Of a stretch of 64,000 bases of DNA, positions 9,728-26,842 are shown piece by piece. Origin of the DNA: an uncultured Bacteroidota bacterium (GTDB taxonomy: Bacteria > Bacteroidota > Bacteroidia > Bacteroidales > VadinHA17); assembly GCA_903824785.1 (NCBI GenBank), contig CAIJYD010000101.1, positions 1 through 64,000 of the forward strand, given 5' to 3'. How positions within the stretch are numbered: the first letter of the stretch is position 1; each line of letters begins with the position of its first letter. Below the pieces are notes generated by a model. The model saw only the letters and a list, made by a program, of their open reading frames with translations, was not told where the DNA came from and did no database searches. The translations under genes and the position numbers were made by a program.

Positions 9728-9732
9728 ATATC

Positions 9733-10662: not shown

Positions 10663-10674
10663 TAAACATTCAAA

Positions 10675-12849
10675 ATGAAGATCAAATTTCTGATTATAAG
10701 TCTGTTTATCTGCTCAGTTGTTGCTGCTCAGGATTTTGTAATGAAAGAAAAACTGGCTGACCGGTATTATAGCCGGTTCGATTACTACAGAGCAATTGCC
10801 ATGTATGAGGAGATCCTCAAAAAGAGCCCCGGCGATTATAAAGTTTATGAGAAGCTGGCCGATTCGTACCGGAAAATAAACGATAGTGAAAATGCAGAAC
10901 GATGCTATGCTGTACTGACTGATTCCTTAGGAGTAAAAAATGAATACCTTCTTTATTATGCCCAGGCACTGGCCAGAAATGGTAAATATGAAAATGCTGC
11001 AGCCTGGTATCAGAAGTATGGAGCAAAAGAAGCTGATGACAAGAGAGGTTCTGAATATCCGGTTGTTTATAGAGATATGGCAATGTTGTATAAGGATTCT
11101 GCCTCTTTCACAGTAAAACGGATGCCTTTCAGCTCTGAAACGTCCGACTTCAGTCCGGCTTATTTTGGAAATGAAATTGTGTTTGCCAGTGCCCGTAAAA
11201 GTTTTTCCCTGGTGAGGTCATTATACAATCGAACAAACACCTCCTTTCTTGATCTTTTCATTGTATCACCCGATTCATCCGGTTCACTTCCATTTTCAGA
11301 GGAGCTCAACTCCATTTATCATGAAGGCCCTGTTACCTTTTCAAGAAATCTTGACACCATTATTTTCACCCGAAGTAATTTTTATAACCGACGGTTTAGA
11401 AAAAGCTCTGAAGGCATAAATAAGCTGAAGCTTTTTCAGGCCGACTGGGACAAAAAGCTGAATCTATGGGTGAATATATCACAGCTTCCTTTCAACAGTG
11501 ATCAGTATTCCGTTGGTCATCCGACACTGAGTGCCGATGGAAAATCAATCTATTTTGCCTCTGATATGCCCGGAGGTTTTGGTGAGACTGATATTTATGT
11601 GTCGCACCAGATTACCGATTCTTTCAATAAAAGCACCTGGGGCAAACCGGTTAATCTGGGTGATAATATCAATACCCGTGGATCGGAGATGTTTCCATAT
11701 ATTGACAATGACGGCAGTCTGTGGTTTGCATCAAACGGACTTCCGGGTCTTGGAGGTCTTGACATCTTTGTTGCCGGAAAGGAACAAGAGATGTTTAAGA
11801 AACCCCTTAACCCCGGATTTCCATTAAACACACGTTTTGATGATTTTGGATTTATTACCCGTAATTCAGGCAATGATGGCTATTTAAGTTCCGACCGGTT
11901 TAATGCCATTGGAGATGACGATATTTTCAGACTAAGACGTCTGTCGCGAAAAATTATTGTCATGGTCTTTGATTCAGAATCAAAAAAGGCTTTATCCTCA
12001 GCAAATATTATTGTTTCAGCAGAAGGATCTGAAACGGAAAAAATAGTGTCCGACGCCGGCGGATCAGGCGAGTTTGCTGTAACCTCTTTAAAGCCATATA
12101 ATTTTGAGGCTTCTAAAGAGTTGTACCAGGAATGCAAAGTTGAAATATCGCAGGGTGAAATTGACAAAACAGATACTCTGAAATTTGCAATGGTTAAACG
12201 TATTCCTGCCTTTCAGCTTACAGCAAAAATTTACTCAGCAACCAATCTTAATCCTGTTCCCGGCGCCATAGCTTCTCTCATAAACAAAGCCGATATTTCT
12301 GAAAATCAAACAACAAGCGATGAAAACGGCATGTTCAGCTTTGAACTTCAGCCTGAAACAGATTATATCATAAAAGTTTCTGTGGCCTCTCCGGGAAGCC
12401 AGTGCGGTTCTGTAATAATTGAACGCTCTACACGCGGAAACCTGAGTACTGTTTCATTCAATGAATCATTTCCGGTATTTTGCGTTGGTGATGTTATTAA
12501 GGTGGAAAATATCTATTACGATCTGGGCAAGTTCAATATTCGTCCCGACGCCGCAAAGGAACTTGATAAAGTTTTGAAGATAATGAAAGAGTCACCGGGG
12601 ATGAAGATCGAGCTGCGTTCTCATACGGATTCACGCGGATCGGCCTCTTCAAATATGACGCTCTCTGAAAAGCGTGCAGCTTCGGCAGCAGAATATCTCT
12701 TTTCTGGAGGTATAGCACGCGACAGGGTTTCAGGTAAAGGGTTTGGTGAAACACTGCCTCTGAATCATTGTGTAAAAGGTGTTAAATGCTCAGAGGATGA
12801 ATTTAAAGTTAACCGTAGAACTGAGTTTAAAATTCTTTCAATAGAATAA
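10675..12849 (+). CDS. TPR-PD40-OmpA family envelope protein (PorE/SprF-operon type)
   Basis: 724 residues. A signal peptide (residues 1-19) is followed by a TPR-like helical region (about 20-125), WD40-like PD40 beta-propeller repeats (about 150-400; SADGKSIYFASDMPGGFGETDIY is the clearest blade), two carboxypeptidase-regulatory-like Ig modules (about 405-490 and 515-590), and a C-terminal OmpA peptidoglycan-binding domain (about 610-724; YYDLGKFNIRPDA, HTDSRGS and NRRTEF motifs). Such proteins accompany PorP/SprF genes throughout Bacteroidota, and the relative PorE links the T9SS to peptidoglycan. The 12-bp spacing to the PorP/SprF gene supports co-transcription. I infer a periplasmic anchor for the adhesin-secretion cassette. 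Confidence 0.9.
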   Translation: MKIKFLIISLFICSVVAAQDFVMKEKLADRYYSRFDYYRAIAMYEEILKKSPGDYKVYEKLADSYRKINDSENAERCYAVLTDSLGVKNEYLLYYAQALARNGKYENAAAWYQKYGAKEADDKRGSEYPVVYRDMAMLYKDSASFTVKRMPFSSETSDFSPAYFGNEIVFASARKSFSLVRSLYNRTNTSFLDLFIVSPDSSGSLPFSEELNSIYHEGPVTFSRNLDTIIFTRSNFYNRRFRKSSEGINKLKLFQADWDKKLNLWVNISQLPFNSDQYSVGHPTLSADGKSIYFASDMPGGFGETDIYVSHQITDSFNKSTWGKPVNLGDNINTRGSEMFPYIDNDGSLWFASNGLPGLGGLDIFVAGKEQEMFKKPLNPGFPLNTRFDDFGFITRNSGNDGYLSSDRFNAIGDDDIFRLRRLSRKIIVMVFDSESKKALSSANIIVSAEGSETEKIVSDAGGSGEFAVTSLKPYNFEASKELYQECKVEISQGEIDKTDTLKFAMVKRIPAFQLTAKIYSATNLNPVPGAIASLINKADISENQTTSDENGMFSFELQPETDYIIKVSVASPGSQCGSVIIERSTRGNLSTVSFNESFPVFCVGDVIKVENIYYDLGKFNIRPDAAKELDKVLKIMKESPGMKIELRSHTDSRGSASSNMTLSEKRAASAAEYLFSGGIARDRVSGKGFGETLPLNHCVKGVKCSEDEFKVNRRTEFKILSIE

Positions 12850-12900
12850 TCTGGTTTTTCGGGAAAGGAATTTACGTCAAATATTTTGTAGTTTTACCGG

Positions 12901-14043
12901 ATGCCTGATTCTCAGAAAAAAACAAGAGTGGCATTCTCAGTTACCAACTGCTTATGCCACGATCAGCGTGTCCGGAAAATCGCCGGAACCGTGTTGGAGC
13001 TGAAATGTGATATTACCCTGATAGGAAGAATTAAAGGTAATTGTGGAAATCCGGAAATTGCTCCGTTTAATGTCAAACGATTCAGGATGCTCTTTAAACG
13101 GGGATTTCTATTTTATAAATTCTATAATCTCAGACTGTTTTTCTATCTTCTATTTCATAAATTCGACCTGCTTGTATCAAATGACCTTGATACGCTTCTT
13201 CCCAATTTTCTTGTTTCAAAAATAAAGAGAGTCCCACTTGTTTATGACTCGCATGAATATTTTACCGGTGTACCTGAAGTGCAGAACAGAAAATTCGTTA
13301 AATGGGTCTGGACAAGCTTTGAAAAAATGATCTTTCCAAGGTTAAAATATGTGATGACCGTATGCGATCCGATTGCCGATATTTACGAAAAGAAATATAA
13401 TGTAAAACCATTGGTTGTAAGAAATGTTTCAAAAAATGCGGATCATATTACTCCTTTTACCCGTGATGAGATTGGGTTTGACAAAAACGATCTGATTCTG
13501 ATAATTCAGGGAACCGGAATAAATATTGACAGAGGAGCTGAAGAGCTTATTGATGCAGTAAATATCACTGATGGAGTAGCTTTGCTTGTTGTAGGTTCAG
13601 GTGATGTTGTTCCTTCTCTGAAAAAACAGGTTACGGAGTTGAATTTAAATTCAAAAGTTACTTTTATAGAGACTGTGGGATGGGAAACACTTATCAGGTA
13701 CACAAAATCAGCTGATCTCGGCATTTGTATTGACAAGGATACAAATCTTAATTACAAATACATCCTTCCAAATAAGCTATTCGATTATATTACAGCAGGA
13801 ATACCGGTACTGGCCAGCGATCTCCAGGAAACAGGAAGGATCATTAATGAAACCGGTTGCGGATATATTATTCCTTCCGTAACACCTGCAAATCTTTCCA
13901 ATGCATTTTCAGAGCTTCAGAACAACAGGGCTAAACTTGCGGTTCTCCGGAAAAATGCCGTGGCTGCATCCGCAAAACTTAACTGGGAAATCGAAAGCAG
14001 AAAGGTTATTGAATTGTATAGTCAGGTTCTGAATAATTTATAA
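12901..14043 (+). CDS. Glycosyltransferase, GT4-like (GT-B fold)
   Basis: 380 residues without signal peptide or membrane segment. The N-terminal half contains a CHDQRVRKIA segment, typical of family-4-like donors' N-domain, and the C-terminal half has the Rossmann-like donor region with a VGSGDVVPSLKKQV stretch and a closing PNKLFDYITAGIPVLASD motif, the usual E/D-x7-E area of GT4 enzymes. It should transfer a nucleotide-activated sugar to an envelope glycan or lipid, substrate unknown. It starts 51 bp after the OmpA-like gene; no other polysaccharide genes are nearby, so it may decorate surface glycans or even T9SS cargo, but that is speculation. Confidence 0.85.
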   Translation: MPDSQKKTRVAFSVTNCLCHDQRVRKIAGTVLELKCDITLIGRIKGNCGNPEIAPFNVKRFRMLFKRGFLFYKFYNLRLFFYLLFHKFDLLVSNDLDTLLPNFLVSKIKRVPLVYDSHEYFTGVPEVQNRKFVKWVWTSFEKMIFPRLKYVMTVCDPIADIYEKKYNVKPLVVRNVSKNADHITPFTRDEIGFDKNDLILIIQGTGINIDRGAEELIDAVNITDGVALLVVGSGDVVPSLKKQVTELNLNSKVTFIETVGWETLIRYTKSADLGICIDKDTNLNYKYILPNKLFDYITAGIPVLASDLQETGRIINETGCGYIIPSVTPANLSNAFSELQNNRAKLAVLRKNAVAASAKLNWEIESRKVIELYSQVLNNL

Positions 14044-14169
14044 GTACTATTTCGGTAAACTGATATCCGATTATTGCTTTCCTCAGACCTTCGTTATAGG
14101 AGAAACAGGTTCCGCTTATAAGTGCAAAAAAAGTAATAAAAACAATTACCTTTACATAAAATATATTCA

Positions 14170-14424
14170 ATGAAAGAATTTATAGGAAAACATCATTTTG
14201 TTATTATTTTTTCGGCTGCAGGAGCGGTAGGTGGATTTCTTTACTGGAGATTTGTCGGATGTCAGACGGGTACCTGCCCGATAAAATCTGTCTGGTATTT
14301 AACTACTTTATGGGGACTGGCTTTCGGTTACCTTTCAGGAGGGATTATCAAAGATTTGCTGATAAAATTCAAGGGCAGAACTAAAACTGCTGATAAACCT
14401 GTTGTCACCGATAAACAGGATTGA
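14170..14424 (+). CDS. Small DUF6132 family membrane protein
   Basis: 84 residues with two predicted membrane helices (about 10-27 and 41-62) separated by the conserved loop RFVGCQTGTCPI, which holds two cysteines spaced C-x4-C. This is the signature of the DUF6132 family of small Bacteroidota membrane proteins; no function is established. A basic tail follows. The gene stands alone between a glycosyltransferase and the Ehr-type operon and has its own hairpin terminator, so I treat it as monocistronic. The two conserved Cys could form a disulfide or bind metal. Confidence 0.75.
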   Translation: MKEFIGKHHFVIIFSAAGAVGGFLYWRFVGCQTGTCPIKSVWYLTTLWGLAFGYLSGGIIKDLLIKFKGRTKTADKPVVTDKQD

Positions 14425-14436
14425 ATAAGTATAATT

Positions 14437-14458
14437 AAAACTGAGGAACCAGTTTTTT
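14437..14458 (+). terminator. Rho-independent terminator after the DUF6132 gene
   Basis: Stem AAAACTG/CAGTTTT (7 bp, 14437-14443 with 14450-14456) around a 6-base loop, followed by T residues; 13 bases after the stop codon. Confidence 0.6.
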
Positions 14459-14585
14459 CTCAAAACCATTCCTGTTCATAAAACCTGCTTGTTCCCTCAT
14501 ATTTATTCGTCTTAAAAACTTTCAGATAAAGGTTTTTTATTTACTTTGCATCCTCTTCTATTAAGTCAGATGAACTAATTAAAGA

Positions 14586-16610
14586 ATGATGGTTTATGAG
14601 GGTAATGAATTAATTGGTTTTCTATTCAAAACATTTGCAATAGTCTTATTTTCAGGAATATTAGTGCTTTCCTTTGTTCCTGTAAGAATTAAACCTTTTG
14701 TCAGCATATTTTCGGTTTTTCTGGTTTCTCTGATAACAGGGTTCATAGCTGTTAAATGTTTCACAACAGGAAGCGTGGAACTGATAATTAACGGAGGATC
14801 ATTTTTTGGGGATATACCTCTCAGAATTGATGCCTTGTCAGCCTGGTTTATTCTGATTATTAACTTTACTTCATTTACAGGTGTGCTATATGGAGCAGGA
14901 TATCTGAAACCATCTTTCATTCACCCTTCTTTTGTTACATTTCACTGGTCATTATATCTTGTTTTTCAAGCTTCAATGGTTGCTGTTACAATGGTTCAGC
15001 ACAGTATTGTGTTTATTATCTCCTGGGAAATAATGTCCTTATCATCCTTTCTTCTTGTATTATTCGACTATACGAATCCAAAAGTTTTGAAGGCGGGAAT
15101 AAATTATCTTGTACAGATGCACCTTAGTGTGGTATTTCTGACAGTTGCATTTATCTGGGTTTATTTCAAAACAGGTACATTCGATTTTCAGGGAATAGGA
15201 TTGTTTTTTAATTCCAATGCCAATATCTGGTTATTCCTGATCTTCTTTGCAGGATTCGGATTGAAAGCAGGTTTTATTGGTCTTCATACCTGGTTGCCTC
15301 AGGCTCACCCTGCTGCCCCCTCGCACATATCAGGTGTAATGTCGGGCGTGATTGTCAAAATGGGTATTTATGGGATTTTCAGGATAATAGCCGGTTTGAA
15401 AACAGATTACCTCATCCTTGGGGAAATAGTTTTAATTTTGTCGCTACTGACAGGTCTGTTTGGTATTATGAATGCTGCCGTTCACCGCGATTTCAAAAAG
15501 ATGCTGGCATATTGTACCATAGAGAATATAGGTATTATTGGGGTTGGTATTGGATTGGGTCTGATTGGTATCGGCAAGGGGCAGAGTATGCTCTGTTTTT
15601 TAGGTTTTGGCGGGGCTCTTCTGCATGTTCTGAACCATTCATTATTTAAATCATTGCTCTTCTTTTCAGCAGGGTCTGTTTACAGGCAGACACATACGCG
15701 TGATATGGATAAACTGGGCGGATTGATCGGAAAGATGCCAAAAACAGCGGGACTGTTTCTCACCGGAGCCATTGCAATAGGAGGGATCCCTCCTCTGAAT
15801 GGCTTTATCTCAGAGTTTTTAATATATTGCGGAATACTTACCGGGATCAACTCATCAGGTATTGCTCAGATAACTTTAATGATAATTGCTTTTGCCGGGA
15901 TGAGTATAATCGGTGGTATTTCACTACTTACTTTTACCAAAACTTTCGGAACTCTGTTTCTTGGTACTCCGCGGCAGAAAATAAAACACCATCCGGAAGA
16001 GGTTCCTTTGATGATGCTATTGCCACAGTACCTTATTGTGATTGCAATGGTTTCAATCGCATTTTTTCCGGGTTTCTATGTTGAACTTGCCGGGTCGGTG
16101 CTGAATGGTTTTACTTATCAGGGAATAAACCTGAATATTGGTGATCTGCATGGATACATGACAGTTATGAAGAATATCAGCCTTGCTTCTGTTATCTTCT
16201 TATCTGTAATTATACTTGTATTTATCCTCAGGCGGATTCTCATTAAGGGGACGGAACAAAAAATTGCTTCTACCTGGGGCTGCGGTTACCTTGCTCCAAA
16301 TGTAAGGATGCAATACACCGGAAAATCATTTTCCAAATCATTCGGGAAGCTTTTGAATTTTATGCTGATAGAAAAAAAGGGATACAAGGAGATTTCCCGT
16401 AACGAAACGTTTCCTCAATCAAGAAAATACCGTTCATTTTACCTCGATATAATTGAAACTAAAGTAATAGATCCGGGAATTTCTCTGATCAGCCGGTTTA
16501 TTAATCTATTCCAGTTTATTCAAAATGGCAAAATTCAGGCATATGTAATTTATGGAATTGTCTTCATTCTGGCCATCTTTATCGGAACCGTTTTAAATTT
16601 ATGGCATTGA
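14586..16610 (+). CDS. HyfB/NuoL-like ion-pumping subunit of Ehr-type complex, copy 1
   Basis: 674 residues with about 14-16 membrane helices, a proton-conducting membrane transporter of the NuoL/M/N (MrpA/D) superfamily, closest in layout to HyfB of hydrogenase 4. The ion-path residues are visible: Glu in WEIMSLSSF, Lys in GLKAGFIGLHTWLP, the HPAAPSHISG broken-helix motif, and Lys in VIVKMGIYG. A C-terminal extension carries the TWGCGY motif usual for HyfB. It is the first gene of a seven-gene operon and overlaps the next gene by 10 bp. It should form one transmembrane proton or sodium channel of the membrane arm. The start is ATG 14586; a second ATG follows immediately. Confidence 0.92.
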   Translation: MMVYEGNELIGFLFKTFAIVLFSGILVLSFVPVRIKPFVSIFSVFLVSLITGFIAVKCFTTGSVELIINGGSFFGDIPLRIDALSAWFILIINFTSFTGVLYGAGYLKPSFIHPSFVTFHWSLYLVFQASMVAVTMVQHSIVFIISWEIMSLSSFLLVLFDYTNPKVLKAGINYLVQMHLSVVFLTVAFIWVYFKTGTFDFQGIGLFFNSNANIWLFLIFFAGFGLKAGFIGLHTWLPQAHPAAPSHISGVMSGVIVKMGIYGIFRIIAGLKTDYLILGEIVLILSLLTGLFGIMNAAVHRDFKKMLAYCTIENIGIIGVGIGLGLIGIGKGQSMLCFLGFGGALLHVLNHSLFKSLLFFSAGSVYRQTHTRDMDKLGGLIGKMPKTAGLFLTGAIAIGGIPPLNGFISEFLIYCGILTGINSSGIAQITLMIIAFAGMSIIGGISLLTFTKTFGTLFLGTPRQKIKHHPEEVPLMMLLPQYLIVIAMVSIAFFPGFYVELAGSVLNGFTYQGINLNIGDLHGYMTVMKNISLASVIFLSVIILVFILRRILIKGTEQKIASTWGCGYLAPNVRMQYTGKSFSKSFGKLLNFMLIEKKGYKEISRNETFPQSRKYRSFYLDIIETKVIDPGISLISRFINLFQFIQNGKIQAYVIYGIVFILAIFIGTVLNLWH

Positions 16611-18628
16611 TAAATATTATATTAATCATATTATTATCAGCGGTGATTGCTATTCTGTCGGCAAATACGACAGGGAAAGGTATAATTACTTTGTCGGCTG
16701 TAATTGTTATTGGATTCATCAGCAGTTTTGTTGCCATACAAGCACTTACCGGAACCAGCTATGAAGTAACTTTTACAGGAACTGTTATTTTCGGGAAAGT
16801 ACCTGTCAGTATTGACGCACTTTCCGCATGGTTCATCCTTCTCATAAATTTCACCTTAATAACCGGAGCACTTTACGGTTTTAATTATATGAAGAGGTAT
16901 GCTGAAAGGAGAAGCGAAATAACACTTCATTGCATAGCTTTTTTATTTGTACAATTTTCTCTGCTGGGAATATGTTCGGTACAGAATGGATTTGTCTTTC
17001 TGTTGTTATGGGAGTTAATGGCGATATCTAATTTCATTCTGGTAATATTCAATCATAATAAACCGGATAACATTAAAGCCGGAATAAATTATATTGTGCA
17101 ATCTCACATAAGCATTGTTTTTATTATGCTGGGGTTCATCTACGTAGCTTTCAAGACCGGTAATTATAATTTCGAAGCAATAGCAGATTTCTCAGGTCAT
17201 CAGTCAACACTTGCCGGAACAGTGTTATTCCTCTGTTTTTTTATCGGGTTTGCAATAAAAGCCGGTTTTGTACCTTTTCATACCTGGCTCCCATATGCTC
17301 ACCCTGCTGCTCCGTCACATGTCTCCGGAATAATGTCGGGTGTTGTTATAAAAATAGGGATCTATGGCATTCTGAGAATGTTGCTGTTAATAAAAACTGA
17401 TTATACAACAATTGGTTATATAATCCTTTTTGTTTCTGTTTTTACAGGGATTTATGGCGTAATGCTGGCAACTGTTCAGCACGATCTGAAAAGACTTCTG
17501 GCATATCATAGTATTGAAAACATTGGAATTATCGGCATGGGGATAGGCATAGGATGCATCGGACTTGGGTCGGCAAATAAGTGGATGGCTATACTTGGTT
17601 TTTCAGGTGCAATGCTGCATACCCTGAATCATTCTCTGTTCAAATCACTTCTCTTTTTCAGTGCTGGAAACATTTTACAGGCTGCCCAAACAGTTAATAT
17701 CGAGCGTCTTGGCGGAATAATTAAAAAGATGCCAAAGACTTCCATTCTGTTTCTTATTTCGGCAATCGCTATTTGCGGTCTGCCACCACTTAACGGCTTT
17801 ATCTCCGAATTCCTGATTTTTGGCGGGATTTATAACTGGCTCTACAGTGCCAGCCTGCTTTCCCTCATGGCAATTATCTTTTCACTGGTGGGGCTTGTGC
17901 TGATCGGAGGGCTTGCAATGTTATGTTTTACAAAAGCCTTTAGTATTGTTTTTCTGGGCAATCCGCGGTCCGTTATGGCGGATGAAGTAATTGAAACAGG
18001 TTTCTGGCAGTTGTTCCCGATGTACCTGACAGCTTCACTTATGATATTGATTGCTTTGTTTCCCGCACTGTTTCTGAATGTTTTGCAGGGCCCTGTCAAT
18101 CTTTATATAAATCCCGTTGACTTTAATCTGAATTTTATAGAAGTTGCTTCGGTCAAGTCACTTCAGATCATAAACCGGTTATTTGCTGTTTTTATTTTGT
18201 TTGTTCTGGGAGTGGTAGCGCTCAGGAAGATTTTAAGCAGAAATAAGATAATATCATCAGCTCCAACATGGGGCTGCGGCTATGGCGCTGCCGATAGTAA
18301 GCTTCAATATACAGCAAACTCGTTTGTACGCAGTTACTCAAAGCTTGCCAAACCGGTACTTGACATCGAAAAGACAGATATTGTGGTTGATGAGGTATTT
18401 CCGGGAGTTAAACATTATGGGACGGATCCTTATGATAAGATAGAAAGGATCTTCATTGACAAGCCAGTTAAACTGCTGAATAGAATAACTGAGTTGTTCC
18501 TTTTCCTTCAGAATGGTCAGTTGCAGAGGTATATATTGTATGGTATTATTTTTATAACTGCTGTAATATGTCTGCCGCTGATAGCCGAAAAAATATTGAC
18601 GATCCTCAAATTTCTAAATAATTTGTAA
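16601..18628 (+). CDS. HyfB/NuoL-like ion-pumping subunit of Ehr-type complex, copy 2
   Basis: 675 residues, a paralogue of the preceding gene along its full length, with the same channel residues (Glu in WELMAISNF, Lys in AIKAGFVPFHTWLP, HPAAPSHVSG, Lys in VVIKIGIYG) and the same TWGCGYG motif in the C-terminal extension. The amino-acid sequences are diverged, so the duplication is old. It starts 10 bp inside the previous gene and ends 1 bp before the HyfC-like gene, so translation is probably coupled. E. coli hydrogenase 4 also carries several antiporter-like subunits (HyfB, D, F); here the D slot is taken by a second full B-type subunit. Confidence 0.92.
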   Translation: MALINIILIILLSAVIAILSANTTGKGIITLSAVIVIGFISSFVAIQALTGTSYEVTFTGTVIFGKVPVSIDALSAWFILLINFTLITGALYGFNYMKRYAERRSEITLHCIAFLFVQFSLLGICSVQNGFVFLLLWELMAISNFILVIFNHNKPDNIKAGINYIVQSHISIVFIMLGFIYVAFKTGNYNFEAIADFSGHQSTLAGTVLFLCFFIGFAIKAGFVPFHTWLPYAHPAAPSHVSGIMSGVVIKIGIYGILRMLLLIKTDYTTIGYIILFVSVFTGIYGVMLATVQHDLKRLLAYHSIENIGIIGMGIGIGCIGLGSANKWMAILGFSGAMLHTLNHSLFKSLLFFSAGNILQAAQTVNIERLGGIIKKMPKTSILFLISAIAICGLPPLNGFISEFLIFGGIYNWLYSASLLSLMAIIFSLVGLVLIGGLAMLCFTKAFSIVFLGNPRSVMADEVIETGFWQLFPMYLTASLMILIALFPALFLNVLQGPVNLYINPVDFNLNFIEVASVKSLQIINRLFAVFILFVLGVVALRKILSRNKIISSAPTWGCGYGAADSKLQYTANSFVRSYSKLAKPVLDIEKTDIVVDEVFPGVKHYGTDPYDKIERIFIDKPVKLLNRITELFLFLQNGQLQRYILYGIIFITAVICLPLIAEKILTILKFLNNL

Positions 18629-18629
18629 A

Positions 18630-19535
18630 ATGCTAAGTATTATACTTATACTATTCACCAGCTTCTTTTTTACCGGGATAATTCTCCGGACAAAAAGTAT
18701 TACTTCAGGCAGAAAAGGCCCCGGTATTCTGCAACCTGTAAGCGATGTGAAACGATTATTCCGGAAGGGATCTGTTTACAGTGAAACTACAAGCATAATC
18801 TTCCGTATTGCGCCGGTAATTGGTTTTTCTTCAGTTTTAATGGCATGTCTGGTTGTTCCGTTTGGTTCGTACAAAGGTATTGTGAGCTTTGACGGTGATT
18901 TTATTTTCTTTGCCTATATTCTTGCGTTAGGCAAGTTTTTCAGCATTATTTCTGCAATGGATACAGGAAGCAGTTTTGAAGGAATGGGAGCGAGCCGTGA
19001 AGCTCTTTATTCGATGTTTGCCGAACCTGCATTTTTTATTCTTATCGGCTCATTTGCTCTGCTTACCGGAAAGACCTCTTTCTATGAAATATTTTCATCA
19101 TTGCATCTTGGCTCATCAATAACCTATATGCTGGGAGGCATGGCAGCTTTTGTGCTGATTATGATCGCCATGATTGAAAACAGCAGGATGCCTGTGGATG
19201 ATCCGAAAACTCATCTTGAACTGACAATGATACACGAGGTTATGATACTGGATAACAGTGGTTTTGATCTGGGTTTAATACTCACTGCCGGATATCTGAA
19301 GTTTGCAATGTATGGTGCCATAATTGCTGATTTCTTTATTGGTGGATTGTCTCTTGTCTGGGCTGTTCCTCTGTTTCTTTTTATTCAGTTTCTGTTTGCA
19401 GTGATGGTGGGATTGATTGAATCTTTTATGGCACGATTCAGGATGAACCATAATCCACAGTTTATTCTGGCGCTCTCCTCAGTGAGCTTTTTAATCTTTC
19501 TTGGTGTGTTGCTTGTTCTGGAAAAATTTGTTTAA
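18630..19535 (+). CDS. HyfC/NuoH-like membrane linker subunit
   Basis: 301 residues, about eight membrane helices, of the respiratory-chain subunit 1 family (NuoH, HyfC, HycD). The cytoplasmic loop ENSRMPVDDPKTHLELTM, ending in IHEVMILD, is the strongly conserved family signature that in complex I borders the quinone cavity and couples the peripheral arm to the pumps. An EGMGASREALYS segment in an earlier loop also fits. It lies directly behind the two HyfB-like genes in the order typical of hyf clusters. Acidic loop residues needed for coupling are present. Confidence 0.92.
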   Translation: MLSIILILFTSFFFTGIILRTKSITSGRKGPGILQPVSDVKRLFRKGSVYSETTSIIFRIAPVIGFSSVLMACLVVPFGSYKGIVSFDGDFIFFAYILALGKFFSIISAMDTGSSFEGMGASREALYSMFAEPAFFILIGSFALLTGKTSFYEIFSSLHLGSSITYMLGGMAAFVLIMIAMIENSRMPVDDPKTHLELTMIHEVMILDNSGFDLGLILTAGYLKFAMYGAIIADFFIGGLSLVWAVPLFLFIQFLFAVMVGLIESFMARFRMNHNPQFILALSSVSFLIFLGVLLVLEKFV

Positions 19536-19547
19536 ATAGTAAAAGAG

Positions 19548-20180
19548 ATGACTAACGTTTTATTGATATTATTCATTATAAGCCTTTTATATGTGTCTAT
19601 TGCAAACAGGATAATTACCTATGTAAGAGTTCTGGCTTTGCAGGGATTTATCCTTTTTGGTGTCACATTCCTCCAGCTTAAGGATATTCAGACCTGGAAC
19701 CTGATTCTTATCTTGCTTGAAACAGTTGTTTTTAAAGCTCTGGCAGTTCCTATGTTTCTTGGATATCTGATCAGACGAAACAGAATAACCCGTGAGACGG
19801 AACCCTACCTTCCGCACTTCATATCACTTCTGATTATTACAATGATCGTTGTGATAACAGTATTGCTGGCCAATTCAATTCAGGATACCCATCTCGATAA
19901 AATATTCTTTATTGTTTCATTATCAACCCTTTTTACAGGTTTATACTTCATCGCTTCCCGGAAAAAGATAATAACTCATGTGATGGGTTACCTGATGATC
20001 GAAAATGGTGTGTTTGTTCTCTCTCTTGCTGTTGGAAACGAGATGCCAGATCTGGTGAATCTGGGTATTATGCTTGATGTTTTTGCCAGCGTTCTGATAC
20101 TCGGAATATTCCTGAATAAAATAGGAGATGTCTTTAAAGATGTTGATGTTGACCAGCTTAGCAATTTGAAAGATTATTAA
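19548..20180 (+). CDS. HyfE-like (NuoK-type) membrane subunit
   Basis: 210 residues, about six to seven membrane helices, matching the HyfE family in size and position (HyfE joins a NuoK-like core to extra helices). The segment MGYLMIENGVFVLSLAVG, with Glu in the second helix of the NuoK-like part, is the recognisable feature; the Glu corresponds to the NuoK proton-path residue. It follows HyfC by 12 bp and precedes HyfF by 2 bp. It is a required membrane-arm component and has no known separate function. Confidence 0.88.
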   Translation: MTNVLLILFIISLLYVSIANRIITYVRVLALQGFILFGVTFLQLKDIQTWNLILILLETVVFKALAVPMFLGYLIRRNRITRETEPYLPHFISLLIITMIVVITVLLANSIQDTHLDKIFFIVSLSTLFTGLYFIASRKKIITHVMGYLMIENGVFVLSLAVGNEMPDLVNLGIMLDVFASVLILGIFLNKIGDVFKDVDVDQLSNLKDY

Positions 20181-20182
20181 AC

Positions 20183-21619
20183 ATGGAAATGATGATTGGT
20201 ATTTATCTGATATGTGCATATCTTATTTCAGCTCTTCTTTTCCTGAATAGAAAAGCTGCCGGTAACAATATTCTGATTGTTCTTTTCTGCATTCTGCAGA
20301 CGGTATTTACAGTTTATGCCTGCTTCAGTTACAGAGAGACTTCATTGATCTATTTTACTTTCGATTCACTTGGATTGCTTCTGCTGATTACTCTCAGCAT
20401 AATTACCATTCCTGCTCTTTTTCACAGTTATCTCTATATTGTCCGTCACGATGAATCACCACAATCGAGGGCGCTCTATTTTGCGGCAATAGTGTTTCTG
20501 ATTACTTCGATAACCGCAGCCTATCTTGCAAATCATATTGCTGTAATATGGATCTTTACTGAAATGACCACGTTGTCTGCTTCTGTTCTTATTTATCATC
20601 ACAGGAATAAACTTGCTCTTGAAGGTACCTGGAAATATGTTTTCATCTGCGCAATCAGTATAACTTTTGTTTTTATCGGGATCCTGTTTCTCAGCCTCTC
20701 TTTGCAGCATGCCGGGTCAAATGATTTATCTTTTGCAAACCTGATGATCTACAAGGATCAGCTTAATCCGTTTTGGCTGCGGCTGGCTTTCCTTTTTATT
20801 TTTACCGGTTTTACAGCAAAACTTGGTCTAGTTCCGATGTACACAGCAGGTATAGATGCCAAAGATAAAGCACCCGCTCCGGCTGGAGCTTTAATGGCAA
20901 GCGTACTTATGAATCTGGGTTTTGTAGGCATCTTCAGGTTTTATGTAATCATCGCTCATACCTCCCTTTTTCACTGGGCTAACCTTATAATATTTATTGC
21001 AGCCTTCCTTTCAATATTTGTTGCCACTGTTTATATGACCAGGGTTACAAATATTAAAAGGATGTTCGCCTATTCCGGAATTGAACATATGGGTATTGTA
21101 ATGCTTGGCCTCGCTGCAGGCGGTATCGGATATTATGCTGCAATTCTCCATATTATTCTGCACGCCTTTGTTAAGTCAAGCCTCTTCTTTCAGTTCAATC
21201 AGTTATACAGGACATTCCAGAGCAAAAGTATTCAGCAAGTAGGAAACTATTTTAAATATAACCCTGCCGGTGCCATCGTATTATTATTAGGATTTATAAG
21301 TGCCACTGCTATGCCACCCTCGGGCTTATTTGTCAGTGAATTCCTTATTTTCCGGTCGCTGTTTGAGGGAAGTTATATAATCCTGCTGGTAGTGGTATTG
21401 CTGCTGCTGACAATTGTTATCTGGGCCTTTGGGAAGAATATATTAAAGATACTGTTCCTCCCTGTTACCGGTTTGGATGAAACAAAAATCCCGAAAATAA
21501 ATCCGTGGGAATCTGTTACTCAATATATTTTGCTGTTTACAGCTATCTGGCTGGGGCTTAATCCACCCGATATTTTTGTCAGGTTAATTCAGGATGCAGT
21601 TAATGTCTTAACTACTTAA
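20183..21619 (+). CDS. HyfF/NuoN-M-like ion-pumping subunit
   Basis: 478 residues with about 13-14 membrane helices, third antiporter-like subunit of the operon. Glu is kept in IFTEMTTLSAS and Lys in FTAKLGLVPMYT; the motif DAKDKAPAPAGALMAS replaces HPxAPSxxSG as in the HyfF family, and the second channel Lys position reads Asn in LMNLGFVGIFR, also common in HyfF. It sits 2 bp after HyfE and 1 bp before the HyfG-like gene. With the two HyfB-like proteins it gives three potential ion translocation channels. Confidence 0.9.
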   Translation: MEMMIGIYLICAYLISALLFLNRKAAGNNILIVLFCILQTVFTVYACFSYRETSLIYFTFDSLGLLLLITLSIITIPALFHSYLYIVRHDESPQSRALYFAAIVFLITSITAAYLANHIAVIWIFTEMTTLSASVLIYHHRNKLALEGTWKYVFICAISITFVFIGILFLSLSLQHAGSNDLSFANLMIYKDQLNPFWLRLAFLFIFTGFTAKLGLVPMYTAGIDAKDKAPAPAGALMASVLMNLGFVGIFRFYVIIAHTSLFHWANLIIFIAAFLSIFVATVYMTRVTNIKRMFAYSGIEHMGIVMLGLAAGGIGYYAAILHIILHAFVKSSLFFQFNQLYRTFQSKSIQQVGNYFKYNPAGAIVLLLGFISATAMPPSGLFVSEFLIFRSLFEGSYIILLVVVLLLLTIVIWAFGKNILKILFLPVTGLDETKIPKINPWESVTQYILLFTAIWLGLNPPDIFVRLIQDAVNVLTT

Positions 21620-21620
21620 T

Positions 21621-23120
21621 ATGAGCTTCATAACTATAAATAACCAGCAGTCTGTTCCGTTAAGCTCTATACCGGAAATGACCTATGATCTGTTTTTTGA
21701 CAGTAATATTACCTTGATAGAAAATCATGAGGAGAGGCATTGTGTATTGTATTTTGCTTTCCGCGAAACCGGCAACATCCGTCTAATATGCTGTATAGCA
21801 GATGATCTTCAGCATAATATCCTTGTTTCATCTTCCCTGGTAAGCAGTGATGCGGTTCTCAATTCGATGGCCGCCAGAAACCTCTCTTTTGAGAAATTTG
21901 AACGTGAAATACATGAAAATTTTGACATTGGCTTTGTTGGGCATCCATGGCTGAAACCGGTTCGCTATGCAGAAAACAGGGCAGACAAAACAAAAACCAT
22001 ACCTGACTATCCGTTCTTTGGAATCGAAAGTGAAGAGCTTCATGAAGTAGGAGTGGGGCCTGTGCATGCCGGTATTATTGAATCTGGCCATTTCAGATTT
22101 GTCTGTAATGGCGAACAGATCTTGCATCTGGAAATTCAGCTGGGATATCAGCACAGGGGCGTTGAACAACTTTTTCTGGAAAAGAAAAAGCTTATTCAGC
22201 GTACTACCCTGGCCGAATCAATTGCAGGTGACAGTGTTATTGGTCATACTACAGCATTTGCAAGCCTGTGGGAGAGTCTGAGCGGAATGTCAGCTGATTA
22301 TGAGATGCAATATTCACGTACTATTGCTCAGGAACTGGAGCGGATTGCAATTCATACCGGCGATCTGAGCGCAATATGTACAGATGTAGCCTATCAGCTG
22401 GGGAGTTCGGTTTTCGGAAGACTGAGGACACCTGTCATCAACTTTTTTCAGGAATGGTGCGGGAACCGTCTGGCAAAAGGACTTATACGCACCGGTTATA
22501 ATCCATATCCTTTTAATAAGGCATTGGCTGACAGGCTTATTGCAGTGCTCGATGCATTTGAACCAGATTTTGTGGAGATGAACAGTGAACTATCGAGGCT
22601 GCCCAGCTCTTTATCGAGATTCGAGAGAACCGGAACAATGAAATATGATCAACTCCTTTCAATTGGCACTGTGGGAATGTCTGCCAGGATGAATGCTCTG
22701 AACAGGGATATAAGACTCTCTCATCCTTATGGGATATATCCCGATTTAAACCATGTTCCTGTTATGAAACATCATGGCGATGTCTATTCCAGGGTGCAGA
22801 TCAGAAAGGAGGAGGTTATTCAGTCCGTTTCCTACATAAGACAATTGCTCAAAAAAATTCCCGATGCAGGAGCGGCTCAGGAGATCCCGGCGAACCTGAA
22901 ACCCGATTCGTTTGCAATCTCCCTTACTGAGGGTTGGAGAGGTGAGATTTGCCATGCAGCTGTCACAGGAAAAAATGGGGAGTTGGTAATATATAAGGTT
23001 AAAGACCCGTCATTTCATAACTGGCTGGCTCTTGCACTTGCAGTGAGGAACAATGAAATATCTGACTTTCCGGTTTGTAATAAAAGTTTTGATCTGTCCT
23101 ATTGCGGGCACGATCTTTAA
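21621..23120 (+). CDS. HyfG-like large subunit without NiFe ligands (Ehr-type)
   Basis: 499 residues: an N-terminal NuoC-like part (about 1-115) and a NuoD/HycE-like large-subunit part (about 143-499). Family landmarks are GPVHAGIIESGHFRF and LGYQHRGVEQLF. Where NiFe hydrogenases carry the first Cys pair (CGIC), this protein reads IAGDS at residues 201-205, and the C-terminal DPCxxC is replaced by FDLSYCGHDL (490-499), leaving no paired cysteines. It therefore cannot bind a NiFe site by the known mode. The C-terminus also lacks the peptide that is cleaved during hydrogenase maturation. This places it with the energy-converting-hydrogenase-related (Ehr) complexes. Substrate and electron acceptor are unknown. 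Confidence 0.9.
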   Translation: MSFITINNQQSVPLSSIPEMTYDLFFDSNITLIENHEERHCVLYFAFRETGNIRLICCIADDLQHNILVSSSLVSSDAVLNSMAARNLSFEKFEREIHENFDIGFVGHPWLKPVRYAENRADKTKTIPDYPFFGIESEELHEVGVGPVHAGIIESGHFRFVCNGEQILHLEIQLGYQHRGVEQLFLEKKKLIQRTTLAESIAGDSVIGHTTAFASLWESLSGMSADYEMQYSRTIAQELERIAIHTGDLSAICTDVAYQLGSSVFGRLRTPVINFFQEWCGNRLAKGLIRTGYNPYPFNKALADRLIAVLDAFEPDFVEMNSELSRLPSSLSRFERTGTMKYDQLLSIGTVGMSARMNALNRDIRLSHPYGIYPDLNHVPVMKHHGDVYSRVQIRKEEVIQSVSYIRQLLKKIPDAGAAQEIPANLKPDSFAISLTEGWRGEICHAAVTGKNGELVIYKVKDPSFHNWLALALAVRNNEISDFPVCNKSFDLSYCGHDL

Positions 23121-23140
23121 AACCAAACAGAGTAATTATT

Positions 23141-23887
23141 ATGTTGAGAACCATTAAAATATTGTACCACCAGGGCAAACAATTTATCCCTGATCTGAGA
23201 AAAGCAAATGTTCCCGGAATATTCAGGGGGCGTCCGGAGATAAGCCTCGATAAAGTCGACTCACAGGCTCTGGCTGATATCTGTCCGACCAATGCAATTA
23301 CCACCTCTCCGGTCGGAATTGATCTTGGCAAATGTACTTTCTGCGGTGAATGCTCACGGCTTTTTCCGGGCAAGATCCGTTTTACCACCGATTATAAACT
23401 TGCTGCGAATAGCCGGGAAAGACTATTCATAAAAGAGGGCCTTCGCACTCCGGTATCTCTTGATCCTGATCTAATTAGAAAAGATATTCAGCGAATGTTC
23501 CGGGGCTCTCTTAAGCTCCGGCAGGTTTCTGCAGCCGGCGATAACAGCTGTGAACTTGAGTTAAATGCCTGTGGAAATGTGAACTTCGATATGGGTCGTT
23601 TCGGTATTGAATTTGTAGCATCTCCACGTCATGCCGATGGAATTGTTATTACAGGTCCTGTCTCTGCAAACATGGCTGAACCGTTGCAGATAACTTATGA
23701 TGCAACCCCTTCACCAAAAATTATTATTCTTGCAGGTACCGATGCCATAAGTGGTGGTATCTTTGAAGGAAGCCCTGCTCTGAACAGGAAGTTTATTGAG
23801 GAAAATCACATAGACCTTTATGTTCCGGGAAATCCGGTTCATCCTTTAACATTCATTAATGGTGTTATGGATCTGCTTGGAATATGA
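23141..23887 (+). CDS. Ferredoxin-HyfI/NuoB fusion, small subunit lacking most N2-cluster ligands
   Basis: 248 residues from ATG 23141, preferred over an in-frame TTG at 23102 that lies inside the preceding gene. The N-terminal domain is ferredoxin-like: Cys48 of CPTNAI with Cys65, Cys68 and Cys71 (CTFCGEC) could hold one [4Fe-4S] cluster; the second cluster's ligands are gone. The rest is NuoB/HyfI-like with MGRFGIEFVASPRHAD and TGPVSANM. The four ligands expected for the proximal cluster are largely lost: the CxxC position reads D134-N-S-C137, the third reads GTDA (Asp201), and the fourth reads PGNP (Asn231). An extra Cys144 is present. It closes the operon and is followed by a terminator. 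Electron entry could occur through the ferredoxin cluster, but the normal route to the large subunit appears cut. Confidence 0.88.
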   Translation: MLRTIKILYHQGKQFIPDLRKANVPGIFRGRPEISLDKVDSQALADICPTNAITTSPVGIDLGKCTFCGECSRLFPGKIRFTTDYKLAANSRERLFIKEGLRTPVSLDPDLIRKDIQRMFRGSLKLRQVSAAGDNSCELELNACGNVNFDMGRFGIEFVASPRHADGIVITGPVSANMAEPLQITYDATPSPKIIILAGTDAISGGIFEGSPALNRKFIEENHIDLYVPGNPVHPLTFINGVMDLLGI

Positions 23888-23893
23888 CTTACT

Positions 23894-23923
23894 GATTAAG
23901 ATCTGTTCTGGCTTAATCTTTTT
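23894..23923 (+). terminator. Rho-independent terminator of the Ehr-type operon
   Basis: GATTAAG/CTTAATC stem (23894-23900 with 23912-23918), 11-base loop, then TTTTT. It begins 6 bases after the last stop codon and separates the operon from the convergent alkylation-repair gene. Confidence 0.75.
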
Positions 23924-23942
23924 ATGGGCCGTTTATTATCTT

Positions 23943-24650
23943 TTATTTTTCCATCGCCTTTGCCTTTAATTCATCAGCCATTTTTTCGATAGCATATCTT
24001 AATGAGGTTCGTGGCATCGTTTTCTTTTTACTCAGTACATAATCGAATACTTCTCTTTCGTGGGTTTTGCTTGCTGCTTTTAGCATCCAGCCATATCCTT
24101 TCTGTACCATATCATCTTTGTCAGAATGAAGGATATCGGCTATCTCAAAAATCTCTTTCAGGAATTTACCCCGTCTGGCAGGTGCAATAAGTGATACAGC
24201 CGCGGCACGTTTTACCCAGCGTTTTTGCGATGTTGCCCATATTTTTAATCCATCCAGGTATTCCGGGTACATCTCAATAAATGTTCCAACATTATGGTTG
24301 CAGAAAGTATCGCACGATGCCCAGTTGCTGACATAATTATCTATCCACCTGCCGAATATTTCAAAATCGGCCGGTTCGTAATATTTACGGACATTATATG
24401 ACCAGTTACAGGCTATAAACGATTCTTCAAATTTCCCCGAAGCCCATAATTCTTCACTTAATGAAAAGATATTTGATTTCGATTTGTCAGCAATTAATTT
24501 ATAATGGCTCCGCGAGATATTACTTAATACTGCTGATTTGATACCATAAGGATTTATCTCTTCCCTGAAGAATCTTTCGTGTGCCTGCCTGCTCTTTTCA
24601 TCAGCATTAGCGATGAGATCCGATCTTAGGTTTTCAATAATATTTTTCAT
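23943..24650 (-). CDS. AlkD-type DNA alkylation repair glycosylase
   Basis: 235 residues composed of HEAT-like helical repeats, of the AlkC/AlkD DNA-7-alkylguanine glycosylase superfamily. Residues that define the AlkD active site are in register: Trp110 and Asp114 (NWASCDTF), Arg148 (WVKRAA), and Trp188 (KGYGWML). The family removes N3- and N7-alkylated purines without base flipping. It is convergent to the Ehr-type operon and divergent from the M49 peptidase gene, and appears monocistronic. Bacteroidota commonly carry one or more such genes, so this is unremarkable apart from the full set of catalytic residues. Confidence 0.9.
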   Translation of the reverse strand: MKNIIENLRSDLIANADEKSRQAHERFFREEINPYGIKSAVLSNISRSHYKLIADKSKSNIFSLSEELWASGKFEESFIACNWSYNVRKYYEPADFEIFGRWIDNYVSNWASCDTFCNHNVGTFIEMYPEYLDGLKIWATSQKRWVKRAAAVSLIAPARRGKFLKEIFEIADILHSDKDDMVQKGYGWMLKAASKTHEREVFDYVLSKKKTMPRTSLRYAIEKMADELKAKAMEK

Positions 24651-24784
24651 TGGTTTTCCTTGCCTAAACGTTAATAATTAAACCACTTTAAATTGAAACA
24701 GTACTATATTTTAAGGTAAAATTATCAGGATTCTTTTACTTTTTGATAATTTAGCAGCTTATTAATAAACAAATTATTGCAGCC

Positions 24785-26842
24785 ATGAAAATGTCGCCGA
24801 AATTATTTATTCTGTTATTTATGATGATATTGAACCTTAATTCATGCAGAAATGCAACACCGCCTGCCCCTGTGGCAACTGATGACTTTAACTATCTTGT
24901 TGATCAGTTTGAGGATATGCGTGTTTTAAAATATAAGCTCCCCGGATTCGAATCGCTCTCTCTTAAGCAAAAAGTGTACATTTATTATCTAAGCCAGGCT
25001 GCTCTCTCCGGGAGAGATATCTTCTGGGATCAGAATTTCAGGTATAATCTGAAGATAAGAAAAACACTTGAAGCCATACTTGAAAGTTATTCAGGTTACA
25101 AAGAAGCGACTGATTATAAGGCATTTGTTGTTTATGCAAAGAGAGTATTCTTTGCTAATGGAATTCACCATCATTATTCAAGCGATAAGCTGAAACCTGG
25201 CTTTGGCGAAAGCTATTTCTCCACTCTTGTTAAAGGGTCAGCACAAGACAAGCTTCCTCTTGCAAAAGGTGAAACTGCAGATCAGCTTATTTCTCTGTTG
25301 TCGCCGGTTATTTTCGATGAGAAGCTATTCCCAAGGAAAGTTGAACAAAGAGCCGGTGCTGATATGGTTGCAGAGTCTGCATCCAATTTTTACGAGGGTG
25401 TAACACAGAAAGAGGTTGAGAGTTTTTATGCAGGGAAAATTGTCGCTGATGATCCAAGACCTGTCTCTCTCGGATTGAATTCAAAAGTTGTGAAACTGAA
25501 CGGAAAAGTAACCGAGGAAGTTTATAAGTCAGGTGGTAAGTATGGAGAAGCTATTGATGTTATTGTTTCGTGGCTTGAAAAAGCTGCAGGTGTAGCTGAA
25601 AATGAAACACAGAAGAAAGAGCTGGCTCTTCTTATTGAATATTATAAATCAGGTGATCTTCGGAAATGGGATGAATATAATGTTGTCTGGGCTAAAAATA
25701 CCAATTCGATGGTTGATTACATAAACGGGTTTATTGAGAACTATGAAGATCCGCTGGGAATGAAAGCAACCTGGGAGTCAATTGTGGATTATACAGATTT
25801 AGAGGCAACTAAACGCACTCAGGTTATTACTGCAAACGCACAATGGTTTGAAGACAATTCTCCCATTCAGCCGAAATACAGGAAAGAAAAAGTTACCGGT
25901 GTTGCTGCCAAGGTGATAAATATTGCGATGCTTGGAGGAGATTCATACCCTGCCTCCCCTCTTGGAATTAACCTTCCTAATGCTGACTGGATCAGAAAAG
26001 ATGTCGGTTCCAAATCGGTTACACTGGCTAATATAACAAATGCTTATGATGTTGCATCGCAGGGAAATGGTTTTCTGGAGGAGTTTGCATCTGACCAGCA
26101 GGAAGTTGCCCGAATAAAAAAATACGGATCAGTTTCCGATGCCCTTCATACCGACCTTCATGAGTGTGTTGGCCATGCAAGCGGAAAACTTGCTGATGGA
26201 ACCGACCCCAATGCTCTTAAAAACTATGCTTCCCCTCTTGAAGAGGCACGAGCTGACCTTTTTGCGCTCTATTTCATGATGGATAAGAAGATTACTGAAC
26301 TTGGCCTGCTTCCTGATGAAGAGGCTGGAAAGGCATCCTACGATGCATATCTCCGTAACGGTTTGCTAACACAGATGGTAAGAATAAAACCGGGTAAAGA
26401 GATTGAGCAGGCTCATATGCGTTGCAGATCATCTATTTCTCACTGGGTTTATGAAATGGGAAAAAATGAAAATGTCGTTGAATTCATAAAACGCGATGGG
26501 AAAACTTATGTTAAAATAAATGATTACCAGAAGCTTAAGCTGCTTTTTGGCGATTTACTTAAAGAGATTCAACGTATTAAGTCAGAAGGTGATTTTGAAG
26601 CAGGTAAAAAACTTATTGAGGATTTTGGTGTAAAAGTCGATGCCTCCTTGCATGCCGAAATACTGGAGCGTTACGGAAAACTTAACCTTGCTCCATATAC
26701 CGGTTTTGTTAACCCGGTGCTTATGCCTGTACTGGATTCAAATGGTGCTGTTACCGATATTACTCTTCAGTATGTTAATGATTACCTGGGCCAGATGATT
26801 TCTTACGGGAAGAACTATTCTTTTCTTTCTGTAAATAATTGA
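24785..26842 (+). CDS. Dipeptidyl-peptidase III-like zinc peptidase (family M49), lipoprotein
   Basis: 685 residues. A lipoprotein signal ends at LNSC (Cys21). The zinc-binding motif HECVGH (His459, Glu460, His464) and the downstream EEARAD (486-491), supplying the third ligand, are the defining M49 motifs; the spacing fits DPP III. Length is close to the well-studied Bacteroides enzyme. The family removes dipeptides from the N-termini of oligopeptides; here it should act at the envelope as part of peptide use, which fits the oligopeptide transporter elsewhere in the window. Homologues are often mislabelled dihydrofolate reductase in databases; nothing here resembles that enzyme. Confidence 0.92.
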   Translation: MKMSPKLFILLFMMILNLNSCRNATPPAPVATDDFNYLVDQFEDMRVLKYKLPGFESLSLKQKVYIYYLSQAALSGRDIFWDQNFRYNLKIRKTLEAILESYSGYKEATDYKAFVVYAKRVFFANGIHHHYSSDKLKPGFGESYFSTLVKGSAQDKLPLAKGETADQLISLLSPVIFDEKLFPRKVEQRAGADMVAESASNFYEGVTQKEVESFYAGKIVADDPRPVSLGLNSKVVKLNGKVTEEVYKSGGKYGEAIDVIVSWLEKAAGVAENETQKKELALLIEYYKSGDLRKWDEYNVVWAKNTNSMVDYINGFIENYEDPLGMKATWESIVDYTDLEATKRTQVITANAQWFEDNSPIQPKYRKEKVTGVAAKVINIAMLGGDSYPASPLGINLPNADWIRKDVGSKSVTLANITNAYDVASQGNGFLEEFASDQQEVARIKKYGSVSDALHTDLHECVGHASGKLADGTDPNALKNYASPLEEARADLFALYFMMDKKITELGLLPDEEAGKASYDAYLRNGLLTQMVRIKPGKEIEQAHMRCRSSISHWVYEMGKNENVVEFIKRDGKTYVKINDYQKLKLLFGDLLKEIQRIKSEGDFEAGKKLIEDFGVKVDASLHAEILERYGKLNLAPYTGFVNPVLMPVLDSNGAVTDITLQYVNDYLGQMISYGKNYSFLSVNN

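Follow-up and report, generated by a model that had tools for sequence, protein, structure and literature searches.

Ehr complexes, cofactor-poor relatives of the energy-converting hydrogenases, combine a complex-I-like membrane arm with NuoB-, NuoC-D- and NuoH-like subunits encoded in one operon, and their large subunit does not carry the CxxC motifs of the NiFe site. Papers cited here describe what they do as unknown or undetermined (PMC10284858, PMC6728331), or suggest another role in electron transfer (PMC10432482); PMC6688271 merely lists the Ehr complex, and the word Ehr is absent from PMC8302410. Here, we describe an operon of this type in a stretch of 64,000 nucleotides (the window; contig CAIJYD010000101.1 of GenBank assembly GCA_903824785.1) from an uncultured Bacteroidota bacterium. 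It encodes the same set of subunits, and its large subunit is likewise devoid of the NiFe CxxC motifs, so that an earlier sequence-only reading, which had proposed an Ehr-like complex, was borne out. While Ehr relatives outside the clade of the window keep the four cysteines of cluster N2 (ten alignment rows, seven plasmid proteins, and twelve loci), the window and its clade have one or none; the N2 cysteines as an Ehr trait are taken from the relatives compared in this study and are not a defining trait in the cited passages. Ehr complexes without NiFe cysteines are known, and what is new relative to our literature search, which left most subscription papers outside and in which no report of an N2-less Ehr complex was recognised, is the loss of N2.

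As far as sequences can tell, the observation is confirmed: a conserved Ehr-type complex has lost the NiFe site, N2, and one ferredoxin cluster, with a single origin, an unchanged cavity signature, and intact main charges in the membrane arm. The operon comprises seven co-directional open reading frames (ORFs) on the plus strand (14586–23887) in the order HyfB1-B2-C-E-F, HyfG, and HyfI. Pfam analysis detected Proton_antipo_M three times, NADHdh, Complex1_49kDa, and Oxidored_q6, with Oxidored_q2 and Fer4 both below threshold.

Ligand positions in HyfI and HyfG

Three sources were sampled: genomes of Bacteroidota, proteins closely related to that of the window, and plasmid records. A genome collection of 84,980 species was scanned with six patterns derived from the window protein, one of which (KCTFCGEC) covers three of the four retained ferredoxin-domain cysteines, and the best 80 of 250 confirmed HyfI relatives were used, so that these loci are the nearest relatives of the window. 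Together with the window and L003–L013 from the phylum sample, they form an alignment of 92 rows, made from 111 loci with a HyfI match by omitting L001 (the window itself) and 19 loci with a coverage below 80%, at which NuoB alone is encoded (for example, L002). In the following, the clade refers to the 82 rows of N2-less type, to which 80/80 scan loci belong, while the ten rows with all N2 cysteines are L004–L013. In a sample of 296 phylum genomes, 12 yielded relatives with the fused small subunit; those of the window genome and of G009 are N2-less, and the other ten contain N2.

HyfI (248 amino acids (aa), 23141–23887) is a ferredoxin-NuoB fusion. Its listed start, TTG at 23102, is also open; the ATG at 23141 is more likely and matches the numbering of D134 and C137. 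Alignment to MbhJ paired NGC, GACP, and PGCP with NSC, GTDA, and PGNP, and placed D134 at the first cysteine position. The four N2 ligand positions of the window are thus D134 and C137 in the former CxxC (D134-N-S-C137, 23540–23551), D201 in GTDA (23741–23743), and N231 in PGNP (23831–23833). Over the 92 rows, positions 134 and 201 are each D in 82 and C in 10, position 231 is N in 81, C in 10, and Y in one, and position 137 is C in 87, T in two, N in two, and A in one. Within the clade, D134 and D201 are present in 82/82 rows and N231 in 81/82, and the earlier claim that three of four N2 ligands are Asp, Asp, and Asn therefore stands. Its further claim of almost no N2 holds for 77 of the 82 clade rows and had to be sharpened for the other five (L033, L035, L061, L084, and L092), where C137 is missing as well and no N2 cysteine is left. 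These five fall in four places of the tree, L033 and L035 together and the other three apart. A [4Fe-4S] cluster with known ligands is therefore excluded in the five rows and, judging from its ligand positions, very unlikely as an N2-type cluster in the remaining ones. Since D/D/N is found throughout the clade and C137 was lost in scattered rows, the site appears to be held without a cluster. Strictly clade-divergent positions, defined as one residue shared by at least 95% of the 82 clade rows but found in no more than 10% of 22 relatives, amount to 10 of the 248 in HyfI, and four of them (134, 136, 201, and 231) lie at N2.

The ferredoxin domain of some relatives, for instance L004 and the Variovorax operon, possesses eight cysteines for two clusters. 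One ligand set, C48, C65, C68, and C71 (23282–23353), is retained as Cys in 82/82 clade rows and in 92/92 overall, while at the four positions of the other, cysteines occur in 2, 0, 0, and 2 of the 82 clade rows, one position being deleted in all; the sequence-only reading had not remarked on this loss. Going by the usual two-cluster pattern, we take the lost cluster to be N6a and the kept one to be N6b, the one nearer N2. N6a was also lost, with N2 kept, in another group made up of L006, L009, and nine loci from a single genus (L152–L160).

The large subunit HyfG (499 aa, 21621–23120) is a NuoC-NuoD fusion in which all four NiFe cysteines are replaced (A202, S205, S493, and G496). A phmmer alignment to MbhL paired ERMCGIC with ESIAGDS, so that two cysteines correspond to A202 and S205 of A202-G203-D204-S205 (22224–22235), which takes the place of the N-terminal CxxC. 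For the C-terminus (SFDLSYCGHDL, 23085–23117, in place of DPCxxC), alignment to HycE paired DPCYS with DLSYC and put S493 at the first cysteine position, while G496 is the second by place, just outside the printed HycE alignment. C495 (LSYCG) is off by one residue from the ligand position and is Cys in 60 of 78 clade rows. Residues G203, D204, S493, Y494, G496, and D498 do not vary among the 78 clade rows or the six N2-containing rows compared, and the cavity signature of AGD and KSF.LSY.G.DL is common to rows with and without N2. These alignments agree with the earlier view, based on IAGDS for CGIC and FDLSYCGHDL for DPCxxC, that there is no NiFe site. Elsewhere in the window genome, a separate gene for a NiFe hydrogenase large subunit was found together with HypD (G000:C17:30593-36741), so that the cell probably matures NiFe centres and the loss would be specific to this complex.

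On a quick HyfG tree of 59 rows, 31 of them N2-less (24 of these taken as every third row), the N2-less rows form one clade (SH-aLRT, a likelihood-based branch support, of 96, starred). Its sister is L004, in which all three clusters are present (support 100, starred). An earlier quick tree from 48 of 95 rows revealed the same clade with a support of 94; L123_op1, L124, and L003 formed long branches, and the fluoride-island row (see below) was removed from the second tree. Three state changes were enough over the 54 labelled rows, with L012, which has some N6a cysteines left, counted as N6a-less, and the outer ferredoxin cluster was lost in three places. The simplest history is that N2 and N6a were lost once on the branch leading to the clade and N6a separately elsewhere, followed by repeated loss of the last N2 cysteine. 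One contig of G310 filed as Spirochaetia (L100) carries an N2-less HyfI, which points to either transfer or misbinning.

Constraint on the membrane arm

The membrane arm consists of three antiporter-like subunits, HyfB1 (674 aa, 14586–16610; Proton_antipo_M, 2.4e-51), HyfB2 (675 aa, 16601–18628; 1e-55), and HyfF (478 aa, 20183–21619; 1.6e-44), the NuoH-like HyfC (301 aa, 18630–19535; NADHdh, 5.9e-35), and the NuoK-like HyfE (210 aa, 19548–20180), which matched the NCBIfam hydrogenase 4 membrane subunit at 5.1e-22, under its cut-off. Their main charged residues were 100% conserved in the clade, namely E148, K227, K258, K304, K355, and E410 of HyfB1 (41 rows), E138, K220, K251, K297, K348, and E403 of HyfB2 (57 rows), D111, R123, E124, E132, E183, D190, H195, E197, H202, E203, and E264 of HyfC (64 rows), E152 and D177 of HyfE (66 rows), and E127, K213, K292, K331, and E386 of HyfF (66 rows). 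The proton-channel Glu and Lys residues read from the window are thus kept in all clade rows compared per subunit (41 to 66). The main charges are mostly kept in 10–14 relatives too, a set that includes the N2-less L112, one exception being HyfF E386 (0.82). All seven genes revealed purifying selection between the window and L034, with non-synonymous differences (pN) of 0.05–0.15 versus synonymous ones (pS) of 0.68–0.79; synonymous sites are near saturation, and no pN/pS ratios are therefore quoted. The pairs of L033 HyfB1 and of L035 HyfB1 and HyfB2 (pN 0.37–0.52) were left unused as apparently mispaired or cut ORFs. Altogether, strong constraint on this putatively ion-translocating arm is supported.

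Possible modes of operation

We consider that there is an even chance that the complex is a non-redox ion machine, driven by a ligand or by the proton-motive force, with one leftover cluster. With the NiFe centre, N2, and one ferredoxin-domain cluster gone, the former active site would have lost its electron wire, leaving one [4Fe-4S] cluster at the outer end, which may serve structure or redox sensing without feeding the cavity. The membrane arm would still move H+ or Na+, coupled to some event in the HyfG cavity that involves no redox step, such as ligand binding, protonation, hydration, or gating by a partner; it might be driven by the proton-motive force or act as a secondary transporter, in the manner of Mrp antiporters or of the DAB CO2 pump. 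The argument is that loss of N2 and N6a cuts the known route from donor to cavity, while cavity and channels remain under purifying selection, which suggests coupling to something other than electron delivery. A more far-reaching version, which we put forward tentatively and with somewhat less than even confidence, is a wholly non-redox core, in which the NuoD-like cavity and the NuoH/antiporter arm run without N2; electron delivery would then be dispensable for coupling in this branch, and the cavity of N2-containing Ehr complexes would perhaps not be redox either. For complex I, it has long been asked how chemistry at the cavity beside N2 drives ion pumping at a distance, and the clade resembles a natural deletion experiment in which cavity signature and pump residues were kept and N2 was discarded. 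If its complex transports ions, electron arrival at N2 would be no obligatory trigger, and the Ehr class would gain a testable idea, namely that its cavity chemistry is not redox.

Several points weigh against a non-redox machine. A cysteine persists at position 137 in 77/82 clade rows, and a metal could be bound by the D/D/N triad. What argues most strongly against a simple loss is that the clade has gained conserved HyfG cysteines, which might, from their distribution, bind a replacement metal. All 92 rows retain one complete cluster, a finding also compatible with a redox role, and PMC6349859 suspects Ehr of coupling redox reactions to charge translocation, which tells against a non-redox reading of the Ehr class as a whole. 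Furthermore, no conserved partner gene was found beside the clade operons in 80 loci, many of which are short upstream, or in 20 further upstream regions.

That the wire was rebuilt, either with another metal at D134/C137/D201/N231 or with a cluster relocated to C41, C57, C58, C162, C253, C444, and C446 of HyfG, so that the complex would still be a redox pump, seems unlikely to us, even though it is the alternative that fared best. The sequence-only reading had already raised the case that the missing cysteines are supplied elsewhere in the same subunits, and HyfG has indeed gained C41, C253, C444, and mostly C57, C58, and a cysteine at column 446, which might form a relocated metal site. Among its 17 strictly clade-divergent positions are C41, C57, C253, and C444 (22950–22952). 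In the 76 clade rows, C41, C162, and C444 are Cys in 76, C57 in 74, C253 in 73, and C58 in 72, while the same columns in 22 N2-containing relatives are Cys in 1 (C41), 1 (C57), 0 (C58), 19 (C162), 0 (C253), 2 (C444), and 1 (column 446). D-C-D-N plus all seven cysteines were found in 56/77 loci. A substitute cofactor is favoured by this gain of C41, C444, and C253, by the basal row L112, which already possesses C41, C162, C253, and C444, by the invariance of D134 and D201 and near invariance of C137, and by L033 and L035, which are without both C137 and C446. On the other hand, none of the new cysteines lies within a CxxC motif, and predicted secondary structure puts them in three separate parts: C41, C57, and C58 in strands of the NuoC-like domain, C162, C444, and C446 in later strands, and C253 near a helix end. 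C253 was lost in 3/77 rows and C446 in 10/77, and all seven HyfG cysteines are kept in three of the five rows without C137.

A one-electron redox gate, in which a soluble donor would reduce the remaining cluster and thereby switch ion transport, the electron going no further, is less probable again. The four cysteines of this cluster are invariant with and without N2, while the outer cluster, by contrast, was lost repeatedly; a purely structural cluster would, however, explain this invariance equally well, the KCTFCGEC scan pattern may bias the 80 loci toward three of these cysteines, and no linked donor gene was found in the 80 loci or 20 upstream regions. The earlier suggestion that ferredoxin binding drives the complex gained no support, although the full ligand set of one cluster remains compatible with it. 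Long-range tunnelling from the remaining cluster, or hopping along amino acids, might also bring electrons to the cavity, a route for which the unchanged cavity signature could speak; we regard this as very improbable, since without N2 the gap would be about 20 Å or more by complex I geometry, with rates well under usual enzyme turnover. Decay to a remnant, or an error of sequencing or assembly, which the loss of several cofactor sites could suggest, is hardly credible, given identical replacements in 82 rows that include loci of the named strains Flavihumibacter profundi, Niastella vici, and Chryseolinea serpens (D134 and D201 in all, N231 in all but one, and thus no error), low pN versus L034 for each of the seven genes, and a shared strand for these genes in most loci holding them.

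Gene neighbourhood and comparison with known systems

The commonest non-operon gene clusters beside the clade operons occurred in 8/80 loci, one of them, by eye, a Crp/Fnr-type regulator, and a Crp/Fnr-type gene was present in 4/20 clade upstream regions, which harbored no SulP or EIIA relatives. In comparison, an HTH-EIIA-type gene (helix-turn-helix plus EIIA) lies upstream of HyfB in 15 of 19 N2-containing loci with that side available (L114–L120, L152, L153, and L155–L160); this count includes the near-copies L116 and L119 and a Pfam run on two of the 15, and it leaves out L161 and L162, where a match of 22.7% between HyfB and HyfC is all that was seen. SulP anion transporter genes were identified by Pfam beside or inside the operon in 4/22 N2-containing loci with differing flank lengths, namely L122 (6921–9137), L113 (4614–6398), L114 (565–2286), and L117 (2759–4492). 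The SulP gene of L122 is fused to an EIIA domain and sits between HyfG and HyfI. In 3/80 loci, a small ORF follows HyfI and overlaps it (L042:2349-2966, L049:10732-11310, and L055:10693-11286); the three share 34–41% identity and, within a small set of sequences, gave weak matches to the C-terminal portion of SulP (E 1e-10 to 7e-6), with no Pfam match, and L054 has a short SulP-like fragment. SulP near relatives gives no more than a hint of a link to anions or bicarbonate, which the DabA counts given below did not support and which is too thin for naming a substrate.

Directly upstream of the operon, the window encodes a small DUF6132 protein (14170–14424), which had no BLAST match at 1e-5 among ORFs of the collected loci. 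Further upstream (80–12849), a very large repetitive surface protein is followed by ORFs resembling, by eye, PorP/SprF and an OmpA-type protein (gliding/secretion). L147 (G310:C31:108600-118600) has extra NuoL/M/N-like genes upstream of its operon. On a Burkholderia cenocepacia plasmid (L129), a fluoride riboswitch (8338–8408) directly precedes distant Ehr-like genes (8531–16061), which keep the N2 cysteines and lie among CrcB, DUF190, inorganic diphosphatase, and chloride-channel genes; an Alicyclobacillus plasmid (L128) carries a riboswitch (11495–11555) followed by a lone HyfG-like gene (11698–13194) near CrcB and DUF190. A fluoride role was rejected for the window, in which no Rfam match reached the gathering threshold, and the fluoride-linked large subunits are just 26% and 28% identical. 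A Variovorax plasmid harbors two different tandem Ehr operons (L123:8608-16003 and 19415-26599) with a universal stress gene in between.

By sequence or fold, the best solved relatives are Hyc/Hyf and Mbh (HycE 7z0s_E, HycG 7z0t_G, and MbhL/MbhJ 6cfw), which have both NiFe and N2-type ligands, while the window complex has neither; likewise, none of the four NiFe cysteine ligands of group 4 NiFe hydrogenases is found in its HyfG. With respiratory complex I it shares homologues of NuoB/C/D/H/K/L-M-N but not the N2 ligands or the NADH module, and NuoE/F/G were absent from the ten proteins scanned (seven from the operon and three neighbours). Since another 49-kDa gene was detected in 18/20 clade genomes (G310 excluded), the complex is not their complex I. 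Tyr87 and His38 of Nqo4, which we take to be quinone ligands, align with G203 and I153 of HyfG.

Mrp antiporters have antiporter-like subunits with conserved Glu and Lys, as in the window complex, and no small Mrp subunit was named by Pfam among its seven genes; NuoB/C/D/H-like subunits, which the window operon adds, are presumably lacking in Mrp. For DAB (MpsAB), DabA (PF10070) was found neither among the ten proteins scanned nor in the window genome, and its occurrence in 3/20 clade versus 11/198 phylum-sample genomes shows no exclusion, so that a replacement of DAB by the window complex was rejected. According to PMC13144422, DAB2 consists of a NuoL-type channel with a carbonic-anhydrase-like partner and works as a carbonic anhydrase driven by the proton-motive force. 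We liken the window complex to this combination of a NuoL-like channel with non-redox chemistry, for which DAB2 provides a precedent of a NuoL-type subunit driving such chemistry.

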